Assembly: GCF_037976825.1 (NCBI RefSeq)
Contig: NZ_CP150269.1
Location: 6,657,501-6,721,500, forward strand
DNA length: 64,000 bases
Direction of reading: 5' to 3'
DNA from: Paenibacillus sp. FSL K6-1330
GTDB taxonomy: Bacteria; Bacillota; Bacilli; Paenibacillales; Paenibacillaceae
In this document: piece by piece, positions 41,121 through 60,683 of the stretch
Numbering within the stretch: position 1 is the first letter of the stretch
Layout of the letters: every line of letters begins with the position of its first letter
Made by a program: the position numbers and the translations under genes
The notes under the pieces: generated by a model
What the model saw: only the letters and a program-made list of their open reading frames with translations
Databases searched by the model: none
Told to the model about the DNA's origin: nothing

Positions 41121-41187
41121 TGATTACACCTCCTGGTTGTATTAGTAGCGTAAGAGCACCAGGCTCTCCGCTCTTCCTACGGGCACT

Positions 41188-41398
41188 AAAAAAGCCTCCG
41201 TAGAATCACGAAGGCCTGATGAATCATCATTTGGCCGGTGTAACCGGACAAATTGTTGACGTTCTATCATAACACCTCGGTAGGAAATTAAGCCTGCTTA
41301 GGGCACCTACTGTCTACGGTAAGCATATTCAACTTTAAGGGTCAGTCTCGAAGACTCACAACTGTTACATAATATCAAACTTTATTGACCAAAGTCAA
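41188..41398 (-). ncRNA. L10 leader with attenuator, and rplJL promoter
   Basis: On the minus strand TTGACT (41393-41398) and TATTAT (41369-41374) are 18 nt apart. The leader runs about 240 nt to rplJ. It contains a terminator hairpin, GCCTTCGT/ACGGAGGC (41194-41201 with 41208-41215), followed by six T (41188-41193). Promoter, leader length and attenuator match the ribosomal L10 leader known upstream of rplJ in Firmicutes. Confidence 0.85.
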
Positions 41399-48288: not shown

Positions 48289-48978
48289 TTACTCTTCTTT
48301 GGCCGAAGACACAACGACCTCGGATACCATGCCTTTAGGCTGGTTTCGTTTGCTCTCATGAAGCTCCGCCCGGAGCTGATCGATCTCCTTCTGCATTGAA
48401 CGCAGCATATCCACAATCGGATCGGGCAGATTCGTGTGATCCAGCCGGTCGCGCACCCGCTCCCCGTTCTGTTTCACAATTTTTCCCGGATTGCCGACAA
48501 CGGTGCTGTTTTGGGGGACTGGTCTTAGTACGACTGCATTGGAACCAATGTTACAGTTATCCCCAATCGTAAAGGAACCTAGCACTTTCGCCCCCGATCC
48601 GATGACCACGTTGTTGCCGATGGTCGGGTGCCGCTTGCCTTTCTCCTTACCGGTTCCACCAAGCGTAACCCCTTGGTAGATCACCACGTCATCCCCAATC
48701 TCACAGGTCTCTCCAATGACAACCCCCATCCCATGGTCTATGAACAGCCGATGCCCGATACGGGCTCCCGGATGAATCTCAATCCCTGTCATAAACCGGC
48801 TGAACTGGGAGATCAACCGGGCCAGCGTATACCATCGCCGCTTAAATAATGCATGAGCTACCCGGTGCGCCCACAGTGCGTGAAGCCCCGAGTAGGTGAA
48901 TACCACTTCAAAAAGTCCCCGGGCAGCCGGGTCATTCTCGAACACTGTCCGAATATCCGATTTCATCTGTTTAAACAT
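48289..48978 (-). CDS. cysE: Serine O-acetyltransferase
   Basis: CysE makes O-acetylserine, the carbon skeleton for cysteine. The protein (229 residues) has an N-terminal helical part and a left-handed beta-helix of hexapeptide repeats ([40 protein letters not shown], key [11 protein letters not shown]). The ATG at 48978 has GAGGGAG 6 nt upstream; an in-frame start further up would lie in the leader. Placed right after a T-box. Confidence 0.96.
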
Positions 48979-49045
48979 GAACGCTCCCTCTTTCCCCTCT
49001 TCCAATCGCGCATGCAACTTGCCATCCATCGTTATTCCTGTAAAT

Positions 49046-49346
49046 AAAAAACGCCCCTGCAGCTTATCGCTGCAGAGGCGCTAGACCGCGGTTCCACTCT
49101 GCTTAGAACCGGCACAAGCCTCCTCCCTTCGTCAGGGACGGATTCTACCGATTCTCTTCATGTCATTAACGGCAGACGACCGGCATGATCTAACGATTGT
49201 GTTCGCTTCAACCATGCAGCTCACAGGTGCATTTCCGCTGCAGGCGACGGGACAACTCTCAGCCGGCAAATTCAAGTGGTCCTTGTCTTCTGCCGATTGT
49301 CCTCTCTGGAACGTGCCTGTTTTACGCGTACTTCTCCTGATCGTAG
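49046..49346 (-). ncRNA. T-box leader, tRNA-Cys specific, upstream of cysE-cysS
   Basis: On the minus strand the parts come in T-box order: stem I base with GAGAAGTA (49329-49336), a GAAATGCA specifier region whose codon TGC (49229-49231) is Cys, the T-box AGAGTGGAACCGCGGT (49085-49100), then a terminator, CGCCTCTGCAGC/GCTGCAGGGGCG (49069-49080 with 49052-49063), and six T (49046-49051). Uncharged tRNA-Cys should favour read-through into cysE-cysS. The same arrangement between gltX and cysE is known in B. subtilis. Confidence 0.93.
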
Positions 49347-49400
49347 CTTTTGTACGTTTATATTTGTTGATCTATGTGAAGGAAACAACGCTCTATAGAA

Positions 49401-49548
49401 CGCTGCGCTGACGGATTGTGCTTCCGATCGCTGTTGCCTTCCGATTTCTTTAACGATATCACATAGGTGGAAATCGGAAGACAAAGGCGAACGCTTCGCT
49501 TCTACAGCACAATTCCGTCCTCTCCGCTGCTTCTCCGTATGAGTTGTT
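49401..49548 (+). repeat. Structured dispersed repeat, family B, copy 1
   Basis: About 148 nt, closely matching 57900-58048 at its ends and junctions (CGATCGCTGTT; AAGGCGAACGCT; TTCCGTCCTCTCCGCTG). Outer stem CGGATTGTGCT (49412-49422) with AGCACAATTCCG (49506-49517). Inner stem 49434-49448 with 49470-49484, 14 of 15 paired. Small third stem GCGAA/TTCGC. It lies between gltX and the T-box. The remaining 100 nt up to gltX shows nothing recognisable. Confidence 0.8.
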
Positions 49549-49651
49549 GCTACCTAACCTAGATCAAAGAATATTTCACTTATAGTTTGGTGTAATTATA
49601 ACTGATGATATACGGGCTGACAAGGAACGTTTATTCGAAGAAGCGCCCGAA

Positions 49652-51115
49652 TTATGCGCCCTTGATCTGAGAACGCAAACGGTCAAGCACACGATCCTTA
49701 CCAAGCAGCCAAATCGTCTGGTTCAGGTCCCGGCCATGAGTTTGTCCCGTCAAGGCTACGCGGATCGGCATAAAGAGCTGTTTGCCCTTAAATCCGGTCT
49801 CCTTCTGGACTTCCTTGATCAGTGCCGCAATCTTCGGAGCGTTAAACTCATCCGACTGCTCGATCTTCGCAAGGAATGCCGACAATACGGCGGGCACCTG
49901 CTCGCCGCCCATCACTTCAATCCCTTCGGAATCCAGCTCCAGATGTGTGCGGAAGAACACTTCCGACAGATCCACGATATCCGAAGCAGCAGTCAACTGC
50001 TCCTGATAGAGCGCCACGAGCGCGCGTGCCCATTCCTCTTGCTCGGCCGTAAGCTCGGACGGCAAGCGACTGGCTTTCTGCAAATGCGGAATGGCTAGAT
50101 CGGCAATCCGATCCGGATCCGCATTCTTGATATACGTGTTGTTCAGATGAGCCAGCTTGTTTGTATCGAATACCGCCGGGCTCTTGGATAATCGATGCTC
50201 ATCAAAGATCGAGATCAACTGCTCTTGGGAGAACACTTCCTCTTCCCCTTCCGGAGACCAGCCAAGCAGCGAGATGAAGTTGAACAGCGCTTCAGGCAAA
50301 TAGCCAAGCTGGTCATACTGCTCAATGAACTGAATAATCGATTCATTACGCTTGCTCAGCTTCTTATGATCCTCGCCCACGATCAGGGTCATATGTCCGA
50401 ACTGAGGCGGCTCCCAGCCAAAGGCTTCATAGATCATCAGCTGACGCGGCGTATTGGAGATATGATCCTCCCCGCGGAGCACATGGCTGATCTTCATCAG
50501 ATGATCGTCCAAAGCTACAGCGAAATTGTAGGTAGGAATGCCGTCTTTTTTAACGATGACGAAGTCGCCCGTCTCTTTGCTGTTAAACGAAATCGTGCCC
50601 TTCACCATATCATCGAACGTGTAGATACGATCTTCTGGAACGCGGAAGCGGATGCTGGCCACACGACCTTCAGCCTCAAGTGCCTGACGCTGCTCTTCCG
50701 TCAAATCCCGGTGCTTCCCGGAATAGCGCGGTGTTTCGCCGCGAGCCATCTGCTCTTCCCGCTCCTGCTCCAGCTCTTCCTCCGTGCAATAGCAGCGGTA
50801 AGCAAGCCCGCGATCCAGAAGGTCCTGCCAATACTCTTTATAAATATCAAGACGCTCGGTCTGGCGATAAGGTCCGTACTCGCCTCCGACATCCACGCTC
50901 TCATCCCAGTCCATACCCAGCCACTTCAAGTATTTCAGCTGGCTTTGCTCTCCGCCTTCTACGTTGCGTTTTACATCTGTATCCTCGATGCGGATAATGA
51001 ATTTCCCGTTGTTCTTGCGGGCAAATAAATAATTGAATAATGCCGTTCTGGCATTGCCGATATGTAAATGTCCCGTTGGACTCGGTGCATAGCGCACGCG
51101 GACTTCTCCGGTCAT
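49652..51115 (-). CDS. gltX: Glutamyl-tRNA synthetase
   Basis: The 487-residue class I enzyme has the [10 protein letters not shown] signature and KKLSKRNES loop. In Firmicutes GltX charges both tRNA-Glu and tRNA-Gln, the latter being corrected by GatCAB; sequence alone does not prove this here. It follows ispF by a 69-nt gap and precedes the cysE T-box, as in B. subtilis. Confidence 0.98.
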
Positions 51116-57678: not shown

Positions 57679-57771
57679 GTGAGTCTCCTTTATGTCGCAC
57701 ATCATTTGTCGGATTTCGTAAAACCCTGCAAAATCAGGCATTACTCAAAGTTTACCATTTCTTATAATTGG

Positions 57772-57799: not shown

Positions 57800-57899
57800 G
57801 AGATGAGAAGGATTTGTTTCAAATTTGAAGGGTCCGGGGCAGAACGACATTATTTTTGCTGCAATTTATCAAACATAATACATGTAAACCACACATGTC

Positions 57900-58048
57900 C
57901 GCTTCGCTGCCGGATCGTTCTTACGATCGCTGTTAAAACCAGGAAACTGGAATTGATATTATGGTGGTTTCCCGGTTTTAAAGGCGAACGCTGTCGCTTC
58001 TTCAGAACGATTCCGTCCTCTCCGCTGGGTTGATACATGAGGGTTGTT
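57900..58048 (+). repeat. Structured dispersed repeat, family B, copy 2
   Basis: Second copy of the 49401-49548 element. Outer stem CGGATCGTTCT (57911-57921) with AGAACGATTCCG (58004-58015), 11 bp with one bulged T as in copy 1. Inner stem 57933-57947 with 57967-57981, 14 of 15 paired but with a sequence unrelated to copy 1. Third stem GCGA/TCGC at about 57984-57997. It lies between the clpC terminator and radA. Confidence 0.8.
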
Positions 58049-58226: not shown

Positions 58227-60683
58227 TTATTCCGTTTCGGCTGATGCGGCAGTGACGCTCTCGTTCTTGTGTACAACCAGCTCGCCATTTGCCTCATCAA
58301 TGGTGAGCGAGTCACCCTTGGCCACAGTACCTTTCAGCAGCTCCTCGGAGAGGCGATCCTCGATGTGCTTCTGGATAGCCCGGCGCAGTGGGCGGGCACC
58401 GAAGGCCGGATCGTATCCTTCCTTCGCAATGAAAGCCTTCGCTTTGTCTGTGAGCTCGAAATGCACCTCGAATTCCTTCAGACGTTTACGCAGCTCGTCG
58501 GACATCAATGTCACGATTTGGGCAATGTGTTTCTCTTCCAATGAGTGGAACACGATGATCTCGTCAATCCGGTTCAAGAACTCCGGACGGAAGCTCTTCT
58601 TGAGCTCATCCATCACTTTGCCTTTCATGTTGTTATAATCGCGACCTGCATCCGTCACTGCAGTAAAGCCAAGCGTAGAGTTCTTCTTGATGGCTTCCGC
58701 TCCCACGTTGGAGGTCAGGATGATCAGGGTGTTGCGGAAGTCCACCACGCGGCCCTTGGAGTCGGTCAAGCGTCCGTCTTCCAGCACCTGAAGCAAGATG
58801 TTGAATACCTCAGGGTGTGCCTTTTCGATTTCATCAAGCAGCACAACGGAATATGGTTTGCGGCGTACCTTCTCGGTCAGCTGACCGCCTTCTTCATAGC
58901 CGACATATCCCGGAGGCGCTCCGACGAGACGTGATGTGGAATGCTTCTCCATGTACTCGGACATATCGATCCGCACAACCGCATTCTCATCTCCGAACAT
59001 CGCTTCCGCAAGGGCGCGTGCCAGCTCGGTTTTACCTACCCCGGTAGGACCCAGGAAGATGAAGGAGCCCATTGGACGCTTCGGATCTTTCAGTCCTGCA
59101 CGTGCCCGGCGAACCGCACGGCTGACCGCTTTGACCGCTTCCTCTTGACCGATCACCCGGCTGTGCAGAATTTCTTCCAGATTCAGAAGACGCTCGGTCT
59201 CTTCTTCTTTCAGTTTATTTACAGGAATGCCAGTCCAGTTGGCTACAACGTCGGCGATATCCTCCGGAGTTACCTCGGAATCGGTACGTCCTTGTTTTTC
59301 TTTCCATTGATTCTTCGTAATTTCAAGCTCTTCACGCAGCTTCTGCTCCGTATCGCGCAGCGCTGCAGCTTTCTCGAATTCCTGGCTTTGGACAGCTGCG
59401 TCCTTCTCTTTGCGGATGTCCTCCAGATGCGCTTCTTGATCTTTCAGATTTGGCGGTATGGTATACGTATGAAGGCGAACTTTCGAACCGGCCTCGTCAA
59501 TCAGGTCAATCGCTTTATCCGGCAGGAAGCGGTCCGTAATGTAGCGGTCGGACAATTTCACAGCCTGCTCGATCGCTTCATCCGTAATTTTCACGCGGTG
59601 ATGCGCTTCGTAACGGTCACGCAGTCCATACAGAATCTGAATGGCTTCCTCCGGCGACGGTTGGTCCACCGTAATCGGTTGGAAACGGCGCTCGAGGGCA
59701 GCATCTTTTTCAATATATTTGCGGTATTCATCCAGTGTGGTTGCTCCGATGCACTGAAGTTCTCCGCGTGCCAATGATGGCTTAAGAATGTTGGAAGCGT
59801 CGATGGCACCTTCTGCACCGCCTGCGCCGATCAAAGTATGCAGCTCATCGATGAACAGAACGATGTTGCCCGCTTGACGAATCTCATCCATAATTTTTTT
59901 CAGGCGATCCTCAAACTCGCCGCGGTATTTCGTACCCGCAACAACTGAGCCCATATCCAGCGTCATGACGCGTTTGTCGCGCAGTGTCTCCGGAATTTCA
60001 TTGTTAATGATGCGTTGTGCCAGGCCTTCCGCAATCGCCGTCTTACCTACCCCTGGTTCACCAATCAACACCGGGTTGTTCTTCGTACGGCGGCTCAGTA
60101 CCTGAATCACGCGCTCAATTTCTTTGCTGCGTCCAATGACTGGATCCAGATTGCCTTCTTTGGCAATGGCGGTCAGATCGCGAGCGAGACTGTCCAGTGT
60201 AGGCGTGCTTACGTTTTGCGGCGTGCCATGATGGCTCGATACCGCTTCGCTGCTGCCGAGCAGCTGCAGTACTTGCTGGCGGGCTTTGTTCAGGCTAATG
60301 CCCAGGTTGTTCAGCACGCGTGCTGCAACCCCTTCACCTTCACGAATCAGCCCCAGCAGAATATGCTCAGTACCTACGTAGGTATGACCAAGCTTGCGAG
60401 CTTCGTCCATGGAGAGCTCAATTACTTTTTTCGCTCTAGGCGTATAAGCAATGTTGGTAGGCTGCTCTTGTCCGCGTCCGATTAATGTTTCGACTTCATC
60501 CTGAATTTTCTCAAGACCAAGTCCAAGTCCGATCAGCGCTTTGGCTGCAATGCCGTCTCCTTCACGAATAAGTCCTAGCAGGATATGTTCTGTGCCGATA
60601 TTGTTGTGACCCAGACGTACCGCTTCTTCCTGAGCCAATGCAAGCACCTTTTGTGCACGTTCCGTAAATCTGCCAAACATCAT
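58227..60683 (-). CDS. clpC: ClpC ATPase, unfoldase subunit of ClpCP
   Basis: The 818-residue Hsp100 protein has two Clp-N repeats (1-150), AAA-1 with GEPGVGKT, a coiled M-domain with a UVR-type motif ([19 protein letters not shown]), and AAA-2 with GPTGVGKTE. With McsB it degrades arginine-phosphorylated proteins through ClpP. It is last in the CtsR operon. The gap to mcsB (110 nt) holds a GGTGTA/TACACC inverted repeat and a weak promoter-like pair. Confidence 0.98.

Follow-up and report, generated by a model that had tools for sequence, protein, structure and literature searches.

ERIC and BOX repeats are imperfect palindromes of 100–200 nt with paired stems, which lie between genes in dozens of copies. 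Palindromic elements derived from IS200/IS605 are not known to leave a target duplication, ISL3 elements have ends starting with GG and produce 8-bp duplications, and REP sequences are also targeted by site-specific insertion sequences. In the Bacillus cereus group, the repeats bcr1–bcr18 are described as intergenic and 100–400 bp long, with tens of copies of bcr1, a MITE-like character of bcr1–3, and a conserved secondary structure in some members; about half of the copies are reported to be transcribed in UTRs or between cistrons (PMC3446304, PMC6542083). REPs are described as 20–40 bp long, most of them with a tag at one end (PMC3733652).

The two repeats analyzed here, both located in a 64-kb stretch of Paenibacillus DNA (the window), are members of a family of short mobile DNA elements that occurs in Paenibacillus and its relatives, often in dozens of copies per genome. 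The family works like the bcr and ERIC repeats, and by the tested features it is a member of neither bcr nor REP. An earlier note on this DNA had likened the repeats to bcr and BOX and had recognized no named family; the nearest kinds are indeed bcr, ERIC, and BOX, and no Rfam family reaches its gathering score at either window site. Compared by description, ERIC and BOX have the same layout as the Paenibacillales element, but occur in other bacteria and have other sequences. The bcr repeats, also compared by description and not by sequence, are in the cited accounts confined to one species group and their mobility is tied to a TTTAT motif, whereas the Paenibacillales element is spread over an order and its mobility is tied to GGCTC ends and 8-bp duplications; by eye, TTTAT is not shared among the variable flanks of the two-ended loci in genomes G285 and G324 (see below). 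REP sequences, like the element, are palindromic repeats behind genes, but they have a linked Y1 (RAYT) transposase. Such a partner was considered and rejected, the only Y1 transposase gene (PF01797) found in the genome of the window (G000) being approximately 24 kb away from the nearest copy. Derivation from IS200/IS605 is ruled against by the target duplications found in G285 and G324.

Window copies and range of the family

The conserved cores of the two copies were identified at 49396..49529 (copy 1; 138.3 bits, E = 3e-30) and 57895..58027 (copy 2; 139.7 bits, E = 1.4e-30) with R1, a covariance model built from 10 copies including these two. Both are on the minus strand, which is also the strand of the neighboring genes at both sites.

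Copy 1 has gltX (stop at 49652) on one side and the cysE T-box leader on the other (cysE at 48289–49029; gene names from NCBIfam). The same site is occupied in five other records, namely, sp. EZ-K15, P. solani, P. glucanolyticus, P. lautus, and P. lactis, and by eye the element lies between a sigma-A-like promoter sequence (TTGTCA-17-TATAAT) and the cysE T-box in six genomes. The T-box leader (49071–49353, minus strand) scores 77.7 bits, below the Rfam gathering score of 93, and was therefore missed by the default Rfam scan; a ribosomal protein L10 leader was seen elsewhere in the window (41179–41337, minus strand, 80.6 bits). Copy 2 is flanked on one side by radA (start at 57741) and on the other by the terminator that follows a Clp ATPase gene (stop at 58227). 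Our guess is that the ATPase gene is clpC-like; no model passed the cut-off for the clpC name. At this site the element is present in P. lautus, sp. EZ-K15, and P. lactis, a remnant comprising P0 (the outermost stem) and one copy of the loop sequence is found in P. glucanolyticus, and no trace of the element was seen in P. solani.

The 7.43-Mb genome of the window contains at least 51 places matching R1 at E ≤ 1e-4, with 150 of 5916 first-look candidates scored. With the same model, the element was found in all 100 sampled genomes of the genus and in 165 of 197 genomes (13 of 19 genera) of the family. With a second model, R2, built from 108 copies, 248 of the 296 genomes from the order, representing 35 of 48 genera, were positive at E ≤ 1e-3. 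The order is presumably Paenibacillales, as Paenibacillus accounts for most of the named records around radA, the others being a few relatives. A sample of the phylum yielded matches in 5/249 genomes at E ≤ 1e-4, all five from the same genus or family as the window; this search doubles as a negative control. Copy numbers per genome in the genus, family, order, and phylum searches are lower bounds. The earlier note had proposed a covariance-model search of Paenibacillus genomes and had reckoned with a lack of further copies in related genomes; the opposite was found, in the own genome and throughout the genus.

Among plasmids there were two partial matches, both in Paenibacillus, and a search of phages gave no matches. 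No Rfam family overlaps the copies in loci L012, L042, and L026 at E ≤ 1, and no prior description of the repeat was found in open-licence papers. Five divergent members (L064–L067 and L074) have a different, often longer P1 stem and lack the usual CAGCGGAG loop motif.

A fold selected on one strand

The sense single strand of the element is selected to fold as one long branched hairpin, in which P0 is followed by an internal loop, the stem P1, the mini-hairpin Pa, and the stem P2. With the arms read in the alignment, P0 extends copy 1 to about 49367..49568 (TTGATCTAGG/CCTAGATCAA and GCAACAAC/GTTGTT) and copy 2 to about 57887..58045 (AACCCTCATGT/ACATGTGTGGTT). The earlier note had placed the copies at 49401–49548 and 57900–58048; both repeats are present there and pair as it described, and these bounds do not mark the element's ends. 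The 3' arm of P1 occupies 49412..49422 in copy 1 (partner 49506–49517) and 57911..57921 in copy 2 (partner 58004–58015), with a bulged base in each. Pa is found at 49493..49499 (GC-GAA-GC) and 57990..57997 (GC-GACA-GC), and P2 with its loop at 49434..49484 (arms 49434–49448 and 49470–49484) and 57933..57981 (arms 57933–57947 and 57967–57981), all on the minus strand.

Two whole pair swaps around a bulged base in the outer stem, and inner 15-pair stems that are unrelated in sequence yet paired, had been described from the two copies alone, and both descriptions are borne out. The single mismatch ascribed to each inner stem does not stand: an A·C on the plus strand reads as a G·T or G·U pair on the minus strand, which was therefore taken as the folding strand. 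Compared with shuffled sequences, the minus strand of the two copies folds with z-scores of −5.7 and −4.3, and the plus strand with −3.3 and −1.3.

The selection on structure that the earlier note had proposed is supported by covariation and by wobble asymmetry. In a 36-pair structure aligned over 107 distinct copies, 94.2% of cells are paired vs. 79.5% in shuffles, 539 cells are doubly changed vs. 125.6, 32 of the 36 pairs show changes on both sides vs. 22.4, and the covariation score is 0.448 vs. 0.169; none of 500 shuffles reached any of five pairing and covariation measures, the alignment leaning towards the structure because it was made with a model that holds most of the pairs. Sliding one side by 1–3 columns reduces pairing to 31–51%. 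Hence the statistical check of covariation suggested earlier came out in favor of structure, and stem positions that vary without keeping their pairing, the outcome that would have spoken against it, are not what the copies show. Three P1 pairs fail in 32, 43, and 40 of the 107 copies; in the IS-borne subfamily (see below) they form a loop. Without these three pairs, sense-strand wobbles amount to 162 G·T vs. 14 A·C; with them the counts are 186 vs. 70, and when pairs having 30 or more wobbles are removed as well, 72 vs. 14. Counted by pair, 24 lean to G·T and 4 to A·C. Under RNA and DNA parameters alike, 150 of 168 copies fold better as the sense strand.

The sequence of P0 is variable, and the two flanks of a copy form a stronger duplex with each other than after swapping between copies (mean −18.0 vs. 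−15.0 kcal/mol; 0/5000 permutations), as measured on 42 of the 51 own copies, with a strong contribution from copies in inverted surroundings, among them L033, L035, and L039. The P0 arms of copy 1 have pair changes in P. solani, e.g., GCAACCAC/GTGGTTGC, and the duplex score of copy 2 is unremarkable (37th percentile). At one orthologous site of G000 and the same-species genome G104 (L017/L181), the outer arms have been rewritten with pairing kept; P0 pairing can be renewed by template switching as well. Over 23 of the 40 G104 copies, sites shared by the two strains differ at 72 of 1718 paired and 208 of 1389 unpaired positions, the structure having been chosen from the same pairs, and at 22% of positions in the 60-nt flanks.

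The unpaired parts are also conserved. At the base of P1, CGNAG faces CGNAG, and the flanking pair is G-C in 81 and A-T in 22 of the 107 copies. In RNA, GNRA tetraloops require a purine at the third place. When no pattern is imposed on Pa, the loop is GNNA in 60 of the 66 cases with four bases and GNA in 37 of the 41 with three. In the set of 172 distinct copies, 150 fit GC-GN(N)A-GC or its paired change AC-...-GT; these comprise 46 triloops and 104 tetraloops, and in 95 of the latter the third base is a pyrimidine. Clustering at 85% leaves 34 GNYA, 7 GNRA, and 30 GNA clusters. Pa thus obeys the rule described for extraordinarily stable DNA mini-hairpins, in which two or more G-C pairs are closed by a GNA or GNNA loop, although the mini-hairpins of that account are short aptamer fragments and Pa is part of a genomic repeat (PMC4686876). 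The Pa loops thus resemble extra-stable DNA loops more than the GNRA loops of RNA, which is a pointer to single-stranded DNA rather than a proof; either RNA or single-stranded DNA may be the acting form.

Ends, duplications, and insertion sequences

Terminal inverted repeats coinciding with the P0 arms, together with target duplications, were observed in two genomes that do not belong to the genus, G285 and G324, the latter from another family of the order. Four copies in G324, about 90% alike, extend to approximately 215 nt with the ends GGCTC...GAGCC or near forms. In both genomes the inverted repeats are imperfect and about 25 bp long; in their place the clade of the window has only variable P0 arms, and no trusted GGCTC ends or target duplications were found there. 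Allowing up to three mismatches, G285 has 75 places with the end pattern and G324 has 15; the reversed pattern gave none. Among the 30 of these 90 places that were examined, 15 have both ends, spaced by 203–225 nt in 14 cases and by 315 nt in one, where the pairing is doubtful. In the other 15 no right end was detected by an ungapped test (at least L281 has one with an indel), and no transposase was seen by eye in the ORF starts of 13 of them.

The 8-bp flanks of the 15 two-ended loci match on average at 5.27 of 8 positions, vs. 2.76 for mis-paired flanks. Matches of at least 6/8 were found at eight loci (3.8% when mis-paired), including one of 8/8 and three of 7/8, e.g., AAAATAGG/AAAATAGG, AAATTATG/AGATTATG, TACTCTTG/TACTTTTG, and AAAAACAT/AGAAACAT; at the remaining seven, 5/8 or fewer positions match. 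A strict scan of 151 copies for GGCTC ends yielded seven candidates, of which three in G285 and one in G259 were judged real, and missed the G324 copies despite their visible ends. The features of a MITE, i.e., terminal inverted repeats, 8-bp target duplications, and a short length (203–225 nt in 14 of the 15 two-ended loci) without an internal transposase gene, are thus present in G285 and G324, and the palindromic mobile element that the earlier note had considered is corroborated in these two genomes, outside the window's clade. An ISL3 element, suggested as partner by the GG at the start of the ends and by the 8-bp duplications, was rejected: G000 and G324 lack ISL3 genes, and the single gene in G285 is split, with no matching ends found beside it.

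The element is also carried by insertion sequences. Near-identical copies of about 1.97 kb with an IS1182 transposase contain it in antisense orientation relative to the transposase, approximately 80 nt in from one end, at 6/6 loci in G118, 5/5 in G012, 2/2 in G105, and 2/4 in G114; being IS1182-borne, these near-identical copies are no evidence of solo movement. A full IS1182 transposase was found at one of three loci in G121. In the own genome, transposase remnants accompany 5 of the 51 copies and IS1182-like end sequence accompanies others, and the window has no match to the IS1182 transposase. Forms of 72 nt without P2 lie beside IS1182-like end sequence at five places (L075–L079), and group II intron matches directly follow the right end of an IS1182 copy in L042 (3307–5104). 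A different element interrupts four own copies (L068, L069, L073, L080) and one in G104 (L193) at the same point, CAACAG|. Its transposase belongs to the IS110 family (NCBIfam, 269 bits vs. a cut-off of 140), and this recurrence makes the repeat a repeated landing site.

Most solo sites are common to G000 and G104. The number of tandem copies differs between these strains at two sites, three vs. one; tandem or neighboring copies differing in number from G104 were noted in L026, L027, and L032, in L033, L035, and L039, and in L022 and L031. An extra hairpin of about 40 nt recurs at the same internal-loop position (L006, L070, L072, L194, L289, L273), and at two shared sites (L070/L180 and L024/L194) it is present in one strain only. 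The earlier note had suggested looking for empty sites in related strains. Copy 2 is absent from P. solani, and the one polymorphism that could be resolved between G000 and G104 reflects loss rather than insertion. Lost elements leave remnants behind, as at the copy 2 site of P. glucanolyticus and at L030 in G104. Two candidate fresh insertions were rejected: L030 is a G104 deletion between 6-bp GATCTG repeats that left the 3' end of the element, and L034/L172 consists of two neighboring elements, each cut down in a different strain. Where G104 has the element at the L163 site, G000 has a stretch of tandem repeats whose core is the palindromic TGTACGATATATCGTACA (L249, G000:C1:4470600–4471720), and hence the site decides nothing about insertion.

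Placement and possible modes of action

By simple ORF calling, the upstream gene is in the sense orientation at 44 of 57 places, namely for 23 of the 32 solo copies in the own genome and for 21 of 25 loci in G285 and G324; the downstream gene is so oriented at 24/32 and 11/25, respectively. The own set covers 32 of the 51 copies, leaving out nine with IS1182-like flanks, four interrupted by IS110, and six tandem or neighboring ones, and the other set covers 25 of the 30 end-pattern loci, leaving out five decayed ones. Of the 57 places, 45 have a sense upstream gene by the bounds used in the terminator search, which found a terminator before the element in 10 cases and after it in 5, and none between gene and element in 35. 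Copy 2 is one of the ten behind a terminator, so the upstream mRNA does not include the element in every case. If the origin lies at coordinate 0, as assumed here, replication runs in the same direction as 27 of the 32 own solo copies.

Taken together, these data probably describe a non-autonomous, palindromic, MITE-like element of about 200–225 nt, spread through the Paenibacillales and moved in trans with 8-bp duplications, whose fold is tolerated or useful behind genes. A putative transposase acting in trans would move the element and leave the duplications. Copies would then persist mainly in the sense orientation behind genes, where they may be transcribed in 3' UTRs and between cistrons, and the transcribed hairpin might be tolerated or might serve as a barrier to 3' exonucleases or as a processing or termination site, by analogy with proposals for the REP, ERIC, and bcr repeats. 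Within such transcripts its role would for the most part be neutral or mildly useful. To a lesser degree, the fold may also act as single-stranded DNA.

The acting form could instead be folded single-stranded DNA, e.g., on the lagging-strand template, recognized by a protein in the manner of attC sites or REP hairpins; this explanation, which overlaps with that of a mobile element, is possible but seems to us rather doubtful. The DNA-type loops of Pa, which do not conform to GNRA, and the co-orientation with replication are in its favor, but the same orientation follows from gene direction, the strands of the G285 elements, judged by eye, do not sort into a simple two-arm arrangement, 8-bp duplications suggest an ordinary DDE-type transposase working on double-stranded DNA, and the sense bias of the upstream gene suits RNA. 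A narrower form of the idea, that the inside and ends of the element are selected as a protein-recognized signal of folded DNA on the lagging-strand template (extra-stable GNA/GNNA mini-hairpins and the CGNAG/CGNAG loop), used by the element's own mobility system and exploited by IS110 as a landing site, we regard as unlikely.

It is very unlikely that the element is a part of IS1182-family insertion sequences with the solo copies as their relics, despite the IS1182 copies that carry it and the remnants in the own genome: 32 own solo copies lie among host genes, the window lacks an IS1182 transposase match, and the solo elements of G285 and G324 have other ends (GGCTC) and duplications of their own. 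Template-switch (quasi-palindrome) correction during replication might keep palindromes paired without any selection, as the rewritten outer arms of L017/L181 could indicate. It predicts no strand preference of wobbles, contrary to the observed excess of G·T even in the stricter count, and leaves the conserved unpaired motifs unexplained; we find it highly improbable. We give equally little credence to a trans-acting small RNA or a ligand-binding, riboswitch-like cis element that was multiplied secondarily; the position between promoter and T-box at the cysE site and the conserved internal loops would fit such a function, whereas the dozens of copies, many of them behind rather than before genes, do not.

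The element is a structured repeat shared by the majority of genomes sampled from an entire order of soil and industrial bacteria. With more than 100 natural variants of one fold (172 distinct copies), its structure, loop chemistry, and placement are testable both statistically and at the bench. For an IS110 element the repeat offers a natural target that is hit repeatedly, and the family makes it testable whether such palindromic repeats are conserved as RNA or as single-stranded DNA.
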